A stretch of DNA of 64,000 bases from the NCBI RefSeq assembly GCF_014672715.2, contig NZ_CP058566.2, positions 930,001 through 994,000 of the forward strand, read 5' to 3'. This DNA is from Dehalogenimonas etheniformans (GTDB lineage Bacteria > Chloroflexota > Dehalococcoidia > Dehalococcoidales > Dehalococcoidaceae). Shown piece by piece: positions 4,217 through 63,030 of this stretch. The translations under genes were made by a program, and so were the position numbers. The notes beneath the pieces were generated by a model, which made no database searches, was not told the origin of the DNA, and worked only from the letters and a program-made list of their open reading frames with translations. Position 1 is the first letter of the stretch. Each line of letters opens with the position of its first letter.

Positions 4217-5590
4217 TTAATGATTTATGGATTTAATCATATAGCCCGAAGCTAACTGATACCCGAGGTCACGATAGTAATTGCGGGCTCCCACCCCTGA
4301 CAAGATCGCAACAAAAGAAGCACCAAATTCCTCATGCGCGATCTCTTCGGCATGATAGAGCAATTGCCGCCCGAGACCCTGATGCTGAGCTGAAAGATTT
4401 CCTTTTGCCCCAATTTGGAGTTCCCGTCCATATACGTGAAGCTCCCGAACTAAAGCTACCCGATCGCCCAAGATCCTGAGGTTGTCAGGGGCTTGAGGTT
4501 GAATTCTCAAGCGTATGAGACCGTACAAAGTGTCATATTCATCCTCGTATGAAAGGAAAATCTCCTTACCTCCAGATGCGTCGTATTCCAACCGTCGCAG
4601 GGAGGGTTGTACCCCCGGGCGCATGGGGCGATGACCGTATTCTCGACATCTTATGCACCGGCAAGTGAAACCTTGCGCGTCAAGACGGTCCTTCAAGCCA
4701 TCTCGCAATGAATTTTTCAGTCCGCCCGTAATGTATTCGGCGGGGATGTCTCTTAGAACCCTAGAGATCCGTACATAAGGCGGGACATTGATTTTCATTT
4801 CCGCGATCAATCCGACCATCACATCATCTTCGTATGGCTGGTACCGATTCTCACGCTGCCATAATTCCAATTCTGTGTTTTCGATTACCATTGTGGGATA
4901 TATTTTTATGCCATCAGGTTGGAAATCTTGGTCGGAAAAAAGGCGTTGCGTCATTAATAGGTCATGCCCGGGATTTGAACCGGGCAAGCCCGGCATCCAG
5001 TGATAATGGACCTTTAATCCGGCTCGCCGCAATCTGGCCGAAGCTTCGATCACCGCCGAAACCCTATGTCCGCGATTTATCAGGCGGTATATCTCGTCGT
5101 CTAAGGTTTGTACTCCCAATTCAACCCGCGTCGTACCCCAGGTAATCATGCGATCGACTTCGCGCTCCCCGCACACGTCCGGTCTGGTTTCGATGCACAG
5201 TCCCACCACCCGGTTTAAGGCGCTTTCGTTGATCCGCTGAGCATCCTCGAGGGAAGTGCTGCCAACTCCGTTCAGGACATCGTAACAGGCTTTGATAAAA
5301 CAGTTTTGGTATTCAATGGGAGTAGCAAGGAAGGTCCCTCCCATCACTATAAGTTCCACTTTATCGGTCGGATGCCCCATGTCCGACAGTATGCGGAGGC
5401 GCGCCTTAATCTGCTCCTCCGGATCATAATCGTACCTGACCGCGCGCATCACCGCTGGAGAATGAGGGGTGTAACTGCGGGGCGTTCCTGAAAAATCCGG
5501 GCAATAGACGCAATGCCCAGGACATGGAGAAGGCCGGCTCATTACTGCTACCGGGGTTACCCCAGAAATTGTCCGGGTAAACTTTTTCAT
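4217..5590 (-). CDS. elp3: Elp3 family radical SAM/GNAT tRNA wobble-uridine enzyme
   Basis: 457 residues, full length for a stand-alone Elp3. Elp3 uses radical SAM chemistry and acetyl-CoA to build a carboxymethyl group on C5 of tRNA U34. Visible features: cluster cysteines C23, C27 and C30 in PCPGHCVYCP; the radical SAM barrel (ELIVMGGTF, ELGVQTLDDEIY, KVHYHWMPGLPGSNP, GIKIYPTMV); the zinc-site segment CRCIRCREYGHRP; and a C-terminal acetyltransferase domain (VRELHVYGRELQIG, HQGLGRQLL, ending RNYYRDLGYQLASGYMIKSI). No other Elongator subunit is nearby, as in the Dehalococcoides mccartyi Elp3 whose structure is known. It is divergent from a Trm9-like methyltransferase across 45 nt. A TATAAT lies 9 nt before the ATG. 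Confidence 0.95.
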   Translation of the reverse strand: MKKFTRTISGVTPVAVMSRPSPCPGHCVYCPDFSGTPRSYTPHSPAVMRAVRYDYDPEEQIKARLRILSDMGHPTDKVELIVMGGTFLATPIEYQNCFIKACYDVLNGVGSTSLEDAQRINESALNRVVGLCIETRPDVCGEREVDRMITWGTTRVELGVQTLDDEIYRLINRGHRVSAVIEASARLRRAGLKVHYHWMPGLPGSNPGHDLLMTQRLFSDQDFQPDGIKIYPTMVIENTELELWQRENRYQPYEDDVMVGLIAEMKINVPPYVRISRVLRDIPAEYITGGLKNSLRDGLKDRLDAQGFTCRCIRCREYGHRPMRPGVQPSLRRLEYDASGGKEIFLSYEDEYDTLYGLIRLRIQPQAPDNLRILGDRVALVRELHVYGRELQIGAKGNLSAQHQGLGRQLLYHAEEIAHEEFGASFVAILSGVGARNYYRDLGYQLASGYMIKSINH

Positions 5591-5599
5591 TTATACTCC

Positions 5600-5605
5600 A
5601 TTATA
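5600..5605 (-). promoter_or_regulatory. -10 box of elp3, close to the start codon
   Basis: TATAAT on the minus strand followed by nine bases (GGAGTATAA) and then the ATG of elp3. A transcript starting about 7 nt after the hexamer would have a leader of only 2-3 nt, so the GGAG would not be transcribed in full. No good -35 box is visible. Confidence 0.45.
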
Positions 5606-5635
5606 CATTGGTCGCCACATCTCTTGAAGTGATTT

Positions 5636-6484
5636 ATGTCAAATAATCAAATCCCTACCTTTGACCGAATTGCGCCCGGTTGGTACAACTTCAGGCACCA
5701 TACCATCTTCAGGGCCGAACTCGAAGCATTAGCCCGGCGTTGGACAAGAGGCAAATTACTCAACATCGGCTGCGGCCACGGTGCCGATTTTTTACCGTTC
5801 AAGGACAACTTCGAATTAACGGGCATCGATATTTCTTCTGAGATGCTCAAATATGCCGAAAAATTCATGGACAAACACGGATTTTCAGCACTACTAAAAC
5901 AAGCCGATATGCGGTCGCTCCCTTTCGCGGACATGTCTTTCGACTTTACCATCGTGGTAGCCAGTCTCCATCATCTCGAGGATAGGACCAGTCGTGAGAA
6001 AGCGCTCAAAGAGATATTTCGCATCTTAAAACCGGGCGGAGAAGCCTTCATCACCGTTTGGAACGCCTGGCAGCCCCGATTCATCTTCAGGAAGCGGGAC
6101 ACCTTAATTCCCTGGCGCTCAAAAGAGGGAAATATCAACCGTTTCTACCATCTTTATTCATACGATGAACTTGAGGGCGCACTGAGGTTAGCTGGCTTTG
6201 AAATACTTGATTCGTTCCCTGAATCAACTTATCGGTTCCCCCTAAAATATTTCTCCAAAAATATCTGCCTTCTTGTTAAGAAACCAATGAAAGATTTGTT
6301 TAGCAAACATCAAACTGATAACATTGACTCAAAAATATGCGACCGTAGCGAGCGCTTGGTAAAGGAGCGGTATTTATGCTGGTCAATATTACATGCCCGA
6401 AGTGCAATACTAGCGGTGGGTTTTCCATCACAGATGCCTATTATATTGGTCCTTACAAATGCTGGAAATGCCGCGCTGTGTTAA
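5636..6484 (+). CDS. Trm9/ALKBH8-like class I SAM-dependent methyltransferase
   Basis: 282 residues. Class I methyltransferase fold: motif I LLNIGCGHGADF (41-52), acidic residue of motif II in GIDISSEM, motif IV-like VVASLHHLED, then ILKPGGEAFITVW. The segments IAPGWYNFRH, DTLIPWRSKEGN, RFYHLYSYDELEGALRLAGF resemble the tRNA methyltransferases Trm9 and ALKBH8, which methyl-esterify the carboxymethyl group made by Elp3. That similarity plus the divergent elp3 gene suggests, but does not prove, an mcm5U34 role. The last ~36 codons overlap the next gene in another frame, so the C-terminal tail after LLVKKP may be non-essential or the product of a lost stop codon. It could also be a general small-molecule methyltransferase. 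Confidence 0.72.
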   Translation: MSNNQIPTFDRIAPGWYNFRHHTIFRAELEALARRWTRGKLLNIGCGHGADFLPFKDNFELTGIDISSEMLKYAEKFMDKHGFSALLKQADMRSLPFADMSFDFTIVVASLHHLEDRTSREKALKEIFRILKPGGEAFITVWNAWQPRFIFRKRDTLIPWRSKEGNINRFYHLYSYDELEGALRLAGFEILDSFPESTYRFPLKYFSKNICLLVKKPMKDLFSKHQTDNIDSKICDRSERLVKERYLCWSILHARSAILAVGFPSQMPIILVLTNAGNAALC

Positions 6485-6594
6485 AGATAAACCTGGAGAA
6501 TAACAGGCTGGTGAGCTGCGAAGCGATGGATGCTGCAGAACTGGCGCGCTTTGAACAAGAACAGGAAGCCAAACGCCGATCCCGCGGGCGATAA
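6376..6594 (+). CDS. small zinc-ribbon protein
   Basis: 72 residues with two CPKC/CWKC knuckles (TCPKCNTSGGF and YKCWKCRAVLKI) that should bind one zinc ion, followed by a charged helix (ELARFEQEQEAKRRSRG). A strong Shine-Dalgarno AAAGGAG lies upstream of the ATG, which supports translation even though the gene begins inside the methyltransferase reading frame (109-nt overlap). Function unknown. Its position invites comparison with Trm112, the zinc partner of Trm9-type methyltransferases, but it does not show a Trm112-like sequence, so this is only a hypothesis. Confidence 0.7.
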   Translation: MLVNITCPKCNTSGGFSITDAYYIGPYKCWKCRAVLKINLENNRLVSCEAMDAAELARFEQEQEAKRRSRGR

Positions 6595-6602
6595 GATAAT
6601 CA

Positions 6603-6935
6603 ATGGAGTTCTTCCAAGGCGAAGTCCATCTGCCCGGAACCAACCATCCGAGCGTTGTTTCATTAGAAATTGATTGGTTGGGTAAACAAGCCACGGTGAG
6701 TCTTTCCAAACCTGAGGGGGGATTCTCCGAATGGCCCGGGCTTTTAGTACAGACAATCGGGGTGGAAGAGGCGGTCTTTAGAACTCGCGGTATTCCCCCC
6801 AGGTTCACCCACTGGTGGCATTTCTCCCGCAGCGGCAGCGATGACCTCTGGGGACTCATTATTGCCGCGCCTGATAATCACGGAGATTGGCAAACCTGCC
6901 CAGTGTTCCTGAGGAAAATACCTAAGGAGGCTTGA
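6603..6935 (+). CDS. hypothetical protein, 110 aa
   Basis: I do not recognise a family. Soluble, no signal peptide or membrane segment, rich in Trp and Pro (HWWHFSRSGSDDLWGLI, HGDWQTCPVFLRKIP). It begins 8 nt after the zinc-ribbon gene, and its stop codon TGA abuts the ATG of the tautomerase gene, so it is part of the same transcript. No strong Shine-Dalgarno before the ATG. Codon use matches its neighbours. Confidence 0.65.
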   Translation: MEFFQGEVHLPGTNHPSVVSLEIDWLGKQATVSLSKPEGGFSEWPGLLVQTIGVEEAVFRTRGIPPRFTHWWHFSRSGSDDLWGLIIAAPDNHGDWQTCPVFLRKIPKEA

Positions 6936-7133
6936 ATGCCCGTTGTCGTTATCGAGATGCATGAGGGCCGAACCATCACCCAGAAGAAACAATTAGCTGA
7001 AGGCATCACCAACGAATTTGTTAAAATCGGCACCGCAGCCGAAAAAGTTACTATCATATTCCGTGATGTCGCCAAAACTAACTGGGCTTCCGGGGGCAAA
7101 TTAAGCTCGGAATCAGCAGCCCGGCCGCTCTAA
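6936..7133 (+). CDS. 4-oxalocrotonate tautomerase family protein
   Basis: 65 residues, the usual length of a 4-OT subunit. Met is followed by Pro (MPVVVIEMHEGRT), the catalytic N-terminal proline exposed after Met removal, and the helix TITQKKQLAEGITNEFVKI is typical. An AAGGAGG lies just upstream, one of the best Shine-Dalgarno sequences in the window. Members are small hexameric tautomerases, often of unknown substrate. Last gene of the plus-strand run; converges with rimI and overlaps its end by 4 nt. Confidence 0.85.
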   Translation: MPVVVIEMHEGRTITQKKQLAEGITNEFVKIGTAAEKVTIIFRDVAKTNWASGGKLSSESAARPL

Positions 7134-7738
7134 AGGCCAAATTTCAAATTGTTTCTAGATTGCTCGAATTTGGCGACGCATTCCTTCGAGTCGGCGTCAT
7201 CCAGGGTCATGATAAGCGCATCCTCCCGGTTATCGGTGTAATAAGCTCGCCGCACGCCTTTGCCGACAAAACCATACTGCAAGTAGAGGCGTTGAGCCTC
7301 ATAGTTGGAGACTCGGACTTCCAGGGTGACGATCTCGGCTTCAATTTTCACGGCAGCCCGTACAAGTTCAATTAAAAGCAGCTTACCGAATCCCCGCCGT
7401 CGAAAATCTTTTTTGACGGCCAAACTGATGATATGAGCCTCTCCGGCCATCATCCAAAAGCCTGCAAAACCGACAATCTTCTCTAGATGTTCCTGCCCTA
7501 CTTTATGGGGCGTTAGCCACTCTACTACCTTATGGGCTAACCCAGTGTTGACTTCAAACTTGGTCTGGAGTTCTTCAGGTTTGTCCAGTACTTCGGCGAC
7601 AACGATGTAATGAGCCAAATGGTTTTCTAATTCACGCTGGTAGTTCATCGGCGGCCACATGGTGGGAAAGGCCTCACGATCTATGGCGGTCACTTGAGGA
7701 ACGTCTTCCTGGGTCATCGGACGTACGATATAATGCAT
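7130..7738 (-). CDS. rimI: RimI-type GNAT N-acetyltransferase
   Basis: 202 residues from the ATG at 7738. GNAT domain with acetyl-CoA loop KKDFRRRGFGKLLL and the RimI-like run TLEVRVSNYEAQRLYLQYGF followed by RRAYYTDNREDALIM. RimI acetylates the N-terminal alanine of ribosomal protein S18; in many bacteria its gene lies near tRNA t6A genes, not here. The frame extends 19 codons upstream into queH, but the ATG at 7738 follows the queH stop by one base and has AGAGG at good spacing. N-terminal part MRPMTQEDVPQVTAIDREAF-like is standard; an insert near residues 70-95 makes it longer than E. coli RimI. Confidence 0.85.
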   Translation of the reverse strand: MHYIVRPMTQEDVPQVTAIDREAFPTMWPPMNYQRELENHLAHYIVVAEVLDKPEELQTKFEVNTGLAHKVVEWLTPHKVGQEHLEKIVGFAGFWMMAGEAHIISLAVKKDFRRRGFGKLLLIELVRAAVKIEAEIVTLEVRVSNYEAQRLYLQYGFVGKGVRRAYYTDNREDALIMTLDDADSKECVAKFEQSRNNLKFGL

Positions 7739-7739
7739 C

Positions 7740-8300
7740 TCAAGCCTCTGTACTCTTTGGATCCATCGATCCGTCCTTGTATCTTTCCCGTTCACTAAAA
7801 AGGCAGCCGCAATACTGCTGCCGATAAAGATCCATAGGCTTGGTGATCCTCCGGCTATCTGAGTACCGTTTTCTCAGGTCCGCGTACTTAAACCCAACTT
7901 CGGAGGATCGTTCGATCTCTCGGGCAACCTCGATGATTTTGTCATGCTGCTGCTGCGGACTGATCAACAAACTGCTGGTAAATGCATCATAGCCATTTTG
8001 GCAGGCGTATTCAGCCACCGTTTGGAGACGAATTTGATAACAGATTGGACAACGGTCTGATTCGTGGCCGACGATCGCCCTGAAATAACGTTCCAGGTCG
8101 TAGCCAGGATGTATCTCCAAAGGAATATCTTCTTTATCAGTCAAAGTTGTAAGCGCTGCCAATCTACTCTGATGTTCGGTAAAAGGATGTATATTTGGGT
8201 TATACCAGAAAGCTGTCACCTGATAACCGCTGTCCCGCCAGTATTTGAGAGTGTAAGCCGAGCAATGAACACAACAGCAGTGGACTAAGAGTTTACTCAT
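7740..8300 (-). CDS. queH: QueH-type epoxyqueuosine reductase
   Basis: 186 residues, DUF208/COG1636 family. QueH reduces epoxyqueuosine to queuosine in tRNA, the last step of the pathway, and replaces the cobalamin enzyme QueG. The conserved cysteines are all present: VHCCCVHC near the N-terminus, DRCPICYQIR in the middle, and YCGCLFS near the C-terminus. queA, the preceding enzyme of the pathway, lies at 56.6-57.6 kb. The gene is followed immediately by rimI on the same strand. Confidence 0.92.
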   Translation of the reverse strand: MSKLLVHCCCVHCSAYTLKYWRDSGYQVTAFWYNPNIHPFTEHQSRLAALTTLTDKEDIPLEIHPGYDLERYFRAIVGHESDRCPICYQIRLQTVAEYACQNGYDAFTSSLLISPQQQHDKIIEVAREIERSSEVGFKYADLRKRYSDSRRITKPMDLYRQQYCGCLFSERERYKDGSMDPKSTEA

Positions 8301-42150: not shown

Positions 42151-42785
42151 TGTCTCTTTTTATCACATTTGAAGGCGGCGAAGGTTCCGGCAAGAGCACC
42201 CAGGCTGCGGCTCTATCCGAACGGCTCAACGCTTCCGGCATTGAAACGCTCCATACCCACGAACCCGGCGGCACCAACCTTGGTGAACAGATCACCTACT
42301 TGCTCAAATGGAGCGAGGATGAGCGTATCTCTCCCTTGGCTGAAGTCATGCTGTTCAACGCCTCTCGGGCGGAACTGGTGAGCCGGATCATCAAGCCGGC
42401 GCTAGCATCAGGGAAGATCGTTGTCTGCGACCGGTATGTGGACTCAACGCTGGTATACCAGGGCTATGGACGAGGTTTAACCGTATCTACCGTGAAAGCG
42501 ATTAACTCCATGGCTACTCAAGGACTGATGCCTGACCTAACATTTTTGCTCGATCTCCCTGTGGAAGAAGGAATGCAGCGAAAACGCGGTACCAAGGCCG
42601 ACCGTTTCGAAAAAGAAAGCACGGATTTTCACCGGCGCATCCGTGATGGTTATCGTGCGCTGGCAGCGGCAGAACCTTCACGCTGGGTAATCCTCGACGC
42701 ACAGTTACACAAAGAAGATATCGCAAACATCATCTGGAATAAAACCCTGGCAGCGTTGGAACTCCGCGCTTCCAAAACGCTATGA
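42150..42785 (+). CDS. tmk: thymidylate kinase
   Basis: 211 residues from ATG 42150; another ATG at 42147 is too near the GGAG. Phosphorylates dTMP to dTDP. P-loop FITFEGGEGSGKSTQAAAL, HEPGGTNLGEQI (DR-like loop region), VVCDRYVDSTLVYQGYGRGL, LLDLPVEEGMQRKRG and KADRFEKESTDFH. Coupled to the upstream ATPase gene and overlaps mnmA by 4 nt. Confidence 0.96.
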
Positions 42786-43819
42786 CCGTGCCCAAGGTCG
42801 CGGTCGCTATGAGTGGCGGCGTTGATTCTTCAGTTGCCGCGTTGCTGCTCAAAGAAGTTGGCTATGACGTCATCGGAGTCACGATGCGGCTCACGGATTC
42901 GCACAAAAGCGCCGCTTCCGCTGAAAATGCCGCATCTATCGCCGCCAAATTGGGAATAAAGCATTACACCGCCGATCTTTCTCAAGAGTTTCAAAAGCAT
43001 GTCATCGACTACTTCTGCGAGGCATATCAAACAGGGCAAACGCCGAACCCGTGCATCGTATGCAATAAACAAATCAAATTCGGCGCTCTCTTAAAATATG
43101 CGGAATCTCTTGGTGCTGAATATCTGGCCAGCGGCCACTACGCAAGAATCCAGAGCGGGGCAACCGGGTATCGTCTTTACAAAGCCGTTGATACCAAAAA
43201 AGACCAATCCTATTTTCTCTACCGCTTAAATCAAACCCTGCTTAACCGGATCATGCTGCCTATGGGAGAGCTTACGAAAAACAAAGTGCGCCAATTGGCT
43301 TTAAGCGCAAACCTGCAAGTTCCTGAAAACGAAAGCCAGGATATCTGCTTTCTTGAGGAGCAAGACTACCAATCATTTTTGAAAGGTAGTTTTCCAATGT
43401 TGCCTGGCGAGATCGTAAATGAGCATGGTGAAATAATTGGGCAACACTCCGGGATCAGCCGCTACACTATCGGCCAGCGGCACGGTCTGAACATCTCGGG
43501 GAAACACCCGCAATACGTCATTGGCATCGATGCTGCAAGAAATCGAATAACACTCGGCGCCGAGAGCGCCCTGTTGAAACAAAGCGTAAAAATCCGGGAC
43601 CTGAATTGGATTTCCGGTTCGTGGCCGGAAGACATCTCGTCTTTGTCAGCAAAGATAAGATACCGGATGCCCGATTCCCCGATCATGTCACTGACAGTAG
43701 ATTCCCAGGATTCTGCGATAATTACGTTCGAGAAGCCGGTGAGAGCAGTCACTCCCGGCCAATCAGCCGTAATTTACCGATGCGACGAGGTACTGGGCGG
43801 TGGTATAATCATCGCCTGA
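42782..43819 (+). CDS. mnmA: tRNA U34 2-thiouridylase MnmA
   Basis: 345 residues. Activates U34 with ATP and adds sulfur (s2U34) in Lys, Glu and Gln tRNAs. PP-loop VAVAMSGGVDSSVAALLL, first catalytic cysteine in TPNPCIVCNKQIKFG, second in SQDICFLEEQDY, plus SGHYARI and KKDQSYFLYRL. Together with Elp3 in this window it could complete a doubly modified U34. Stop shares one base with the rnhB start. Confidence 0.96.
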   Translation: MTVPKVAVAMSGGVDSSVAALLLKEVGYDVIGVTMRLTDSHKSAASAENAASIAAKLGIKHYTADLSQEFQKHVIDYFCEAYQTGQTPNPCIVCNKQIKFGALLKYAESLGAEYLASGHYARIQSGATGYRLYKAVDTKKDQSYFLYRLNQTLLNRIMLPMGELTKNKVRQLALSANLQVPENESQDICFLEEQDYQSFLKGSFPMLPGEIVNEHGEIIGQHSGISRYTIGQRHGLNISGKHPQYVIGIDAARNRITLGAESALLKQSVKIRDLNWISGSWPEDISSLSAKIRYRMPDSPIMSLTVDSQDSAIITFEKPVRAVTPGQSAVIYRCDEVLGGGIIIA

Positions 43820-62956: not shown

Positions 62957-63030
62957 TGGCTGCCGAGCCAGGGTTCGAACCTGGGCAAAAGGATTCAAAG
63001 TCCTCCGTGCTACCACTACACAACTCGGCA
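62957..63030 (-). tRNA. tRNA-Gln (anticodon TTG)
   Basis: Acceptor TGCCGAG / CTCGGCA, discriminator G and encoded CCA. Anticodon loop CTTTGAA, T loop GGTTCGAACC. The wobble U34 is a target for MnmA and possibly Elp3. Confidence 0.95.

Follow-up and report, generated by a model that had tools for sequence, protein, structure and literature searches.

A candidate two-gene Elp3–Trm9-type pathway for wobble-uridine modification in Dehalococcoidia, shared with Patescibacteria and DPANN-type archaea

The tRNA methyltransferase Trm9 esterifies cm5U34 (PMC5372719), and the yeast enzyme alone, without Trm112, is inactive (PMC6382703). Outside eukaryotes, Elp3 is the only component of Elongator reported in the literature consulted. 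Archaeal Elp3 makes cm5U34 on its own (PMC13315578), Elp3 and a Trm9 homologue are clustered in S. solfataricus (PMC2584109), and the archaeal groups reported to have Trm9 are the Sulfolobales and Halobacteriales (PMC5372719). Regarding bacteria, a 2017 review stated that genes resembling the partner methyltransferases of Trm112 could not be detected (PMC5372719), and a 2019 review described Trm9 mcm5U-type modification as exclusive to eukaryotes (PMC6382703). The presence of Elp3 in one bacterial clade was termed striking by a 2020 review, according to which direct evidence for xcm5U34 in Elp3-bearing bacteria was lacking and the bacterial Elp3 tested was only very weakly active (PMC7663514). 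In the open-licence literature, we found no report of a bacterial Elp3–Trm9 pair.

The window analysed here is a 64 000 nt stretch of DNA from Dehalogenimonas etheniformans, and is part of a 2,068,322-bp single-contig genome that is 99.93 % complete. It encodes an Elp3 protein and, divergently, a class I methyltransferase. We propose with good confidence, on the basis of homology and linkage, that the pair represents a two-step wobble-uridine pathway of the archaeal/eukaryotic type in a bacterium, in which the methyltransferase would esterify cm5U34 to mcm5U34.

The original prediction described a complete Elp3 gene separated by a 45 nt divergent gap from a methyltransferase with Trm9-type sequence segments, followed by a small two-knuckle zinc protein, and this layout proved to be exact. 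The elp3 gene (4217–5590, reverse strand) encodes a 457 aa protein with radical SAM and GNAT/KAT domains, identified by TIGR01211, Pfam and full-length alignment to PDB entry 5L7J. The 45 nt divergent intergenic region common to both genes spans 5591–5635, and the gene for the Trm9-like class I SAM methyltransferase, identified by PF08241, PDB profile searches and a structural model, starts with the ATG at 5636 and extends to 6484 on the forward strand. The segments DTLIPW, RFYH...ELE and LAGF are all found in the methyltransferase, and constitute its specifically Trm9-matching part. The zinc ribbon ORF (6376–6594, forward strand, 72 aa), with two CxxC knuckles, lies 3' of the methyltransferase gene and is a neighbour of the pair in part of the Dehalococcoidia.

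It should be noted that the methyltransferase in the window no longer has the stop codon found in its relatives (which are about 217–224 aa in length), and is extended by 65 aa that overlap the zinc ORF in a different frame. Because of this loss, we read the 282 aa ORF as an enzyme core of about 217 aa (residues 1–217, about 5636–6286, forward strand) followed by a read-through tail. The lost stop codon might affect methyltransferase activity in the window copy, and relatives with an intact stop codon are therefore the better proteins to test.

The Elp3 gene is of a known kind, and the novelty of the locus is its partner. Elp3 scored 548 bits against TIGR01211 (cut-off 350) and matched the Pfam families Radical_SAM, Radical_SAM_C and Acetyltransf_1, the last of these over its cut-off. 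The D. mccartyi Elp3 (PDB 5L7J) aligned end-to-end with the window protein at 654 bits, and this alignment shows that the CxxxCxxC cluster motif (CPGHCVYC) and the GNAT signatures QHQGLGRQLL and NYYRDLGY are kept. Given the full-length homology, and an activity that is established for archaeal Elp3, the window Elp3 is predicted to make cm5U34.

To define the association within the class, the same 147 genomes were searched for each protein, using the TIGR01211 cut-off for Elp3 and a threshold of 200 bits for methyltransferase orthologues. Elp3 was present in 28 of the 147 genomes and the methyltransferase in the identical 28, and the two genes were adjacent and divergent in every one (gap 18–305 nt, median 76), on which grounds a chance neighbour was rejected. 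The association is strict and far above chance, with a Fisher value of 1e-30 for co-occurrence that ignores kinship and does not reflect independent events, because the Elp3-positive genomes, which belong to 11 families, may stem from one gain. A separate set drawn from named genomes yielded 80 further loci, with Elp3 beside the methyltransferase at 72; most of the eight loci with no adjoining Elp3 end at a contig edge. Among the window neighbours tested, none stays with the pair as Elp3 does.

The scan of named genomes also found one contig of Candidatus Peribacteria and one titled Candidatus Aenigmatarchaeota. A further locus titled Deltaproteobacteria (L128) was rejected as evidence for another phylum, as it starts at a contig end in a genome with no Elp3 over the cut-off, and is probably misbinned. 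Across 287 genomes of Patescibacteria, Elp3 was found in 104 and the methyltransferase in 57. Elp3 accompanied 55 of these 57 methyltransferases, 44 of them as divergent neighbours within 600 bp; MnmG was found in six of the 287 genomes, none with Elp3. Elp3 without the methyltransferase was common in Patescibacteria, and the methyltransferase without Elp3 was almost absent. Such an asymmetric dependence would follow from a methyltransferase whose substrate is the product of Elp3.

The same asymmetry fits any step downstream of Elp3, and we therefore considered whether the methyltransferase might act on the Elp3 product in a role other than that of the final mcm5U enzyme, with the ester being amidated later to ncm5U, or with another group on the modified uridine being methylated. 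Archaeal tRNA is able to carry ncm5U34, as in T. acidophilum (PMC5372719), and ncm5U is reported to accumulate in a yeast trm9 mutant (PMC3110198). We regard such a role as unlikely, given that the protein conserves the residues with which Trm9 positions cm5U34 (see below) and that no amidating partner was in sight among the window neighbours tested. Esterification of cm5U34 to mcm5U34 is the reading that we prefer.

In the phylum of the archaeal contig, 53 of 145 genomes contained the methyltransferase, and Elp3 was located beside it, within the flank examined, at 11 of 25 loci of these DPANN-type archaea. The methyltransferase tree grouped the Dehalococcoidia with six archaeal sequences (support 99/95), all of which have Elp3 next door, and in the Elp3 tree the Dehalococcoidia joined three further archaeal loci that bear the pair (SH-aLRT 99). 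The bacterial module thus has archaeal neighbours in either tree, but the nearest archaeal groups are not the same in the two. These phylogenies suggest that the linked pair was probably exchanged with DPANN-type archaea; cross-domain transfer is the simplest reading, and its direction is inferred.

The methyltransferase (METHYLTRANSFERASE) was recognized by generic libraries as Methyltransf_11 only (PF08241, 80.5 bits), and no Pfam or NCBIfam model was matched over an equivalog cut-off. A profile built from 27 aligned orthologues was searched against the PDB, and its top match was Yarrowia Trm9 (YlTrm9, 5cm2_Z; 7.5e-22, 81 bits). The match to 5cm2_Z extends through the lid, while the second match (1.9e-20) is confined to the Rossmann core. 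After removal of this generic core, a profile restricted to the last 77 residues (lid and C-terminus) was searched against 177,635 distinct PDB sequences, and its sole significant match was again YlTrm9 5cm2_Z (1.8e-5), the next having an E-value of 0.37. In the reverse comparison, the YlTrm9 fragment matched the Dehalococcoidia methyltransferases with a median score of 52 bits (range 38–67; 47.9 for the window protein). Its scores to nine methyltransferase paralogues, of which seven come from the window's own genome, were 0–19 bits. CmoM was not named among the PDB matches at E ≤ 1e-8, a result that does not in itself exclude CmoM.

In yeast Trm9, tRNA binding and activity have been shown by mutagenesis to depend on R29, H115, R241, Y243 and N271 (PMC5372719). 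These residues correspond to R20, H112/H113, R169, Y171 and N209, positions that show no variation or at least 90 % conservation among the 27 orthologues. The histidine and the R-x-Y pair were aligned directly with YlTrm9, and R20 and N209, which the Trm9 fragment used does not reach, were equated from motif and position. The active-site set is also present, with Y171 and N209 varying to some extent, in the Patescibacteria and archaeal relatives; every member of the three lineages that covers the columns of R169 and W142 retains both residues, and none of the paralogues has the R169 residue. An AlphaFold2 model of the methyltransferase (pLDDT 91.8) contains two strands, at residues 155–162 and 165–172, at the position of the Trm9 lid (PW...RYYHL...E motif). 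The methyltransferase thus conserves the R, H, R, Y and N with which Trm9 orients cm5U34, and has a predicted two-stranded lid.

The model superimposed on 5cm2_Z with a Z-score of 21.5 and an rmsd of 1.8 Å over 171 residues (28 % identity), and 5cm2_Z had the lowest rmsd and highest identity among the structure matches listed. Fold comparison was rejected as a discriminator, as numerous class I methyltransferases reach the same Z of about 21, and because the fold is common we regard the structural match as consistency and not as proof. In the best tree, Trm9 joined the clade of this methyltransferase (93/92; one long-branched eukaryotic Trm9), but an alternative placing Trm9 with the paralogues was not rejected by the AU test (p = 0.43 for that single, long-branched Trm9 sequence). 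The predicted kinship to Trm9 is supported by the family profile, the lid-only profile and the active-site residues, and we conclude from these sequence comparisons that the methyltransferase is Trm9-like.

The generic database matches and the many tied folds would also suit an ordinary class I enzyme, acting on a small molecule or UbiE-like, that came to lie beside elp3 by chance and was retained through stable gene order. This seems very improbable to us in view of a lid-only profile that matches Trm9 alone, a linkage seen in three lineages, archaea among them, with no such persistence of the other neighbours of the window's pair, and a methyltransferase that is almost never seen without Elp3.

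The genome of D. etheniformans contains no MnmG by the curated model (best score 18.3 bits against a cut-off of 524.85) and no MnmE over the cut-off (116.6 bits against 252.6, with a match to profile positions 206–337 only). The genes whose presence would have argued against the original prediction are thus both absent from the genome. Across the class, MnmE was found over the cut-off in 29 of the 147 genomes, none of which was Elp3-positive, a disjoint distribution with p = 0.0013. In our reading, the module stands in for MnmE/MnmG. MnmA, the tRNA 2-thiouridine(34) synthase, had been placed at 42.8–43.8 kb and was confirmed at 42782–43819 on the forward strand, with 409 bits to NF001138 and 358 bits to TIGR00420, both over cut-off. 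The window also encodes a tRNA-Gln(UUG) (62957–63030, reverse strand; ARAGORN), which belongs to the class of U34 tRNAs on which Elp3/Trm9/MnmA pathways act.

The original prediction cast the zinc protein as a diverged or non-homologous Trm112-like partner, and this part fails on distribution, neighbourhood, Pfam content and a promoter-like element. The cysteines of its two knuckles are invariant in 16 homologues. Of the 147 genomes, 20 contain the zinc ribbon; 14 of these have Elp3 and six do not, and the ribbon is missing from 14 of the 28 Elp3-positive genomes; on these counts it was rejected as a functional partner. It was present at 18 of the 80 loci, compared with 19 for an unrelated tautomerase and 23 for a GNAT gene of the same neighbourhood. 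Trm112 (PF03966) was not among the Pfam families of the window zinc protein, nor among the 25 families listed for its 16 homologues. The model of the zinc ribbon (pLDDT 78.8) had no Foldseek match at E ≤ 0.001, and the best weak matches were to LysW. Direct sequence comparison revealed a TTGTTT-like box, a 17 nt spacer and TAACAT or a close variant before the ribbon in seven related genomes, including that of the window (TTGTTT-N17-TAACAT, 6296–6324, forward strand), and this promoter-like element suggests separate transcription of the zinc ribbon. That the methyltransferase needs the ribbon as a Trm112-like activator, as the position of the ORF directly downstream and the presence of Elp3 in 14 of the 20 ribbon-bearing genomes might imply, is hardly credible against its patchy co-occurrence with Elp3, a frequency no higher than that of the tautomerase or GNAT gene, the lack of a Trm112 family by Pfam, the weak resemblance to LysW and the promoter-like element of its own.

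No Trm112 was found in the window's genome, where the sole PF03966 match lies inside a helicase named as PriA-like from its sequence, and PF03966 is not matched at all in several complete genomes of relatives that carry the pair. Because the genome has no Trm112, we class the methyltransferase as Trm9-like and not as a Trm9–Trm112 holoenzyme, and because its only Trm112p match lies inside the PriA-like helicase, the methyltransferase probably works without Trm112, unlike yeast Trm9.

In the pathway that we propose, Elp3 would use acetyl-CoA and radical SAM chemistry to place a carboxymethyl group on C5 of U34, giving cm5U34. The divergently encoded Trm9-like methyltransferase would then transfer a methyl group from SAM to the carboxylate of cm5U34, giving mcm5U34, and mcm5s2U34 may arise in the Gln, Lys and Glu tRNAs through addition of s2 by MnmA. 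The end product with MnmA is probably mcm5s2U34. Homology, active-site residues, co-occurrence, gene order and the absence of MnmE, MnmG and Trm112 are observations; catalysis, product, tRNA substrates and independence from Trm112 we infer. Homology, linkage, the absence of mnmE and mnmG, and the presence of MnmA all favour the predicted Elp3–Trm9-type route with MnmA, from which the zinc partner has to be removed.

In a broader interpretation, which we hold to be probable though less firmly than the two-step pathway itself, a Trm112-free Elp3–Trm9 route to mcm5(s2)U34 would be a real bacterial alternative to MnmE/MnmG in Dehalococcoidia and much of the Patescibacteria, the conserved divergent pair would have passed between these bacteria and DPANN archaea by cross-domain transfer, and Trm9 chemistry would be possible, and may have begun, in the absence of Trm112. 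The views expressed in reviews, that Trm9-type enzymes are unknown in bacteria and that Elp3 is confined to Dehalococcoides, look wrong. Our analysis names a candidate for the missing downstream enzyme of bacterial Elp3 and predicts the nucleoside, so that a bacterial tRNA modification so far undetected becomes directly testable. It also extends the range of bacterial Elp3, previously one clade, to roughly one-third of the Patescibacteria sampled (the 104 genomes above). If the enzyme works without Trm112, it would serve as a simpler model for the chemistry of Trm9 and as an example of a translation module of two genes that has crossed between domains.

The D. mccartyi Elp3 (PDB 5L7J, 5L7L and 6IA6) is the direct homologue of the window Elp3. 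Its cellular product is treated as undetected in PMC7663514, and the later papers from that work that we consulted name no downstream enzyme, whereas we propose the methyltransferase for this step. The usual bacterial MnmE/MnmG (plus MnmC) route to (c)mnm5U34 modifies the same position, presumably with the same decoding role, and has MnmA for s2 in common with the pair; however, its enzymes and chemistry are unrelated, and MnmE was over cut-off in none of the 28 Elp3-positive genomes. The archaeal systems of Sulfolobus and Haloferax resemble the module in combining a stand-alone Elp3 with a Trm9 homologue, and differ from it in that the pair described here occurs in bacteria and DPANN-type archaea, and that the genome of the window lacks Trm112. 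In the eukaryotic pathway, comprising Elongator (Elp1–6) with Trm9–Trm112 or ALKBH8–TRMT112, Elp3 likewise has complete radical-SAM and KAT domains, the lid motif and five tested active-site residues of Trm9/ALKBH8 are also those found here, and the presumed order is the same, from cm5U to mcm5U. Unlike that pathway, which has Trm112 and relies on Ncs6/Urm1 for s2, the module has no Trm112 and MnmA in place of Ncs6/Urm1, and it is bacterial and encoded by a divergently linked gene pair.

The stop codon that is found at about 217-224 aa in relatives is absent from the methyltransferase ORF of the window, and the extra 65 aa (6285-6484) cross the 72-aa zinc-ribbon ORF in a different frame. The zinc gene is followed by a 110-aa ORF (6603-6935), which had no family match in Pfam or NCBIfam and no counterpart among the 80 related loci. 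Further downstream, a GNAT gene (7130-7795) is overlapped by the gene for the epoxyqueuosine reductase QueH (7740-8300; PF02677, 173.7 bits), a further wobble-position tRNA gene, located 1.1 kb past the zinc-ribbon ORF. Both the QueH and GNAT genes were found again near the Elp3-methyltransferase pair in some relatives amongst the 80 loci.

In most archaeal members that lack Elp3 within a flank of about 1.5 kb per side (L191-L195, L197 and L205), Cys replaces the second His (H113) of the positions matching yeast Trm9 H115. These members may form a subfamily with a different substrate.

The class-wide search placed 90 of 147 genomes below both the Elp3 and MnmE cut-offs; these genomes may carry a diverged MnmE, use a third route or leave U34 unmodified. 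At locus L128, a Dehalococcoidia-like methyltransferase is positioned at the end of a contig titled Deltaproteobacteria. The contig is probably misbinned, because the Elp3 search of its genome returned nothing over the cut-off.

Finally, we identified Elp3 in 104 of the 287 genomes searched in the phylum Patescibacteria. The methyltransferase was missing, at the threshold used, from about half of these Elp3-positive genomes, in which the pathway may end at cm5U. The occurrence of Elp3 across Patescibacteria is contrary to the published view that bacterial Elp3 is limited to a single clade (PMC7663514).
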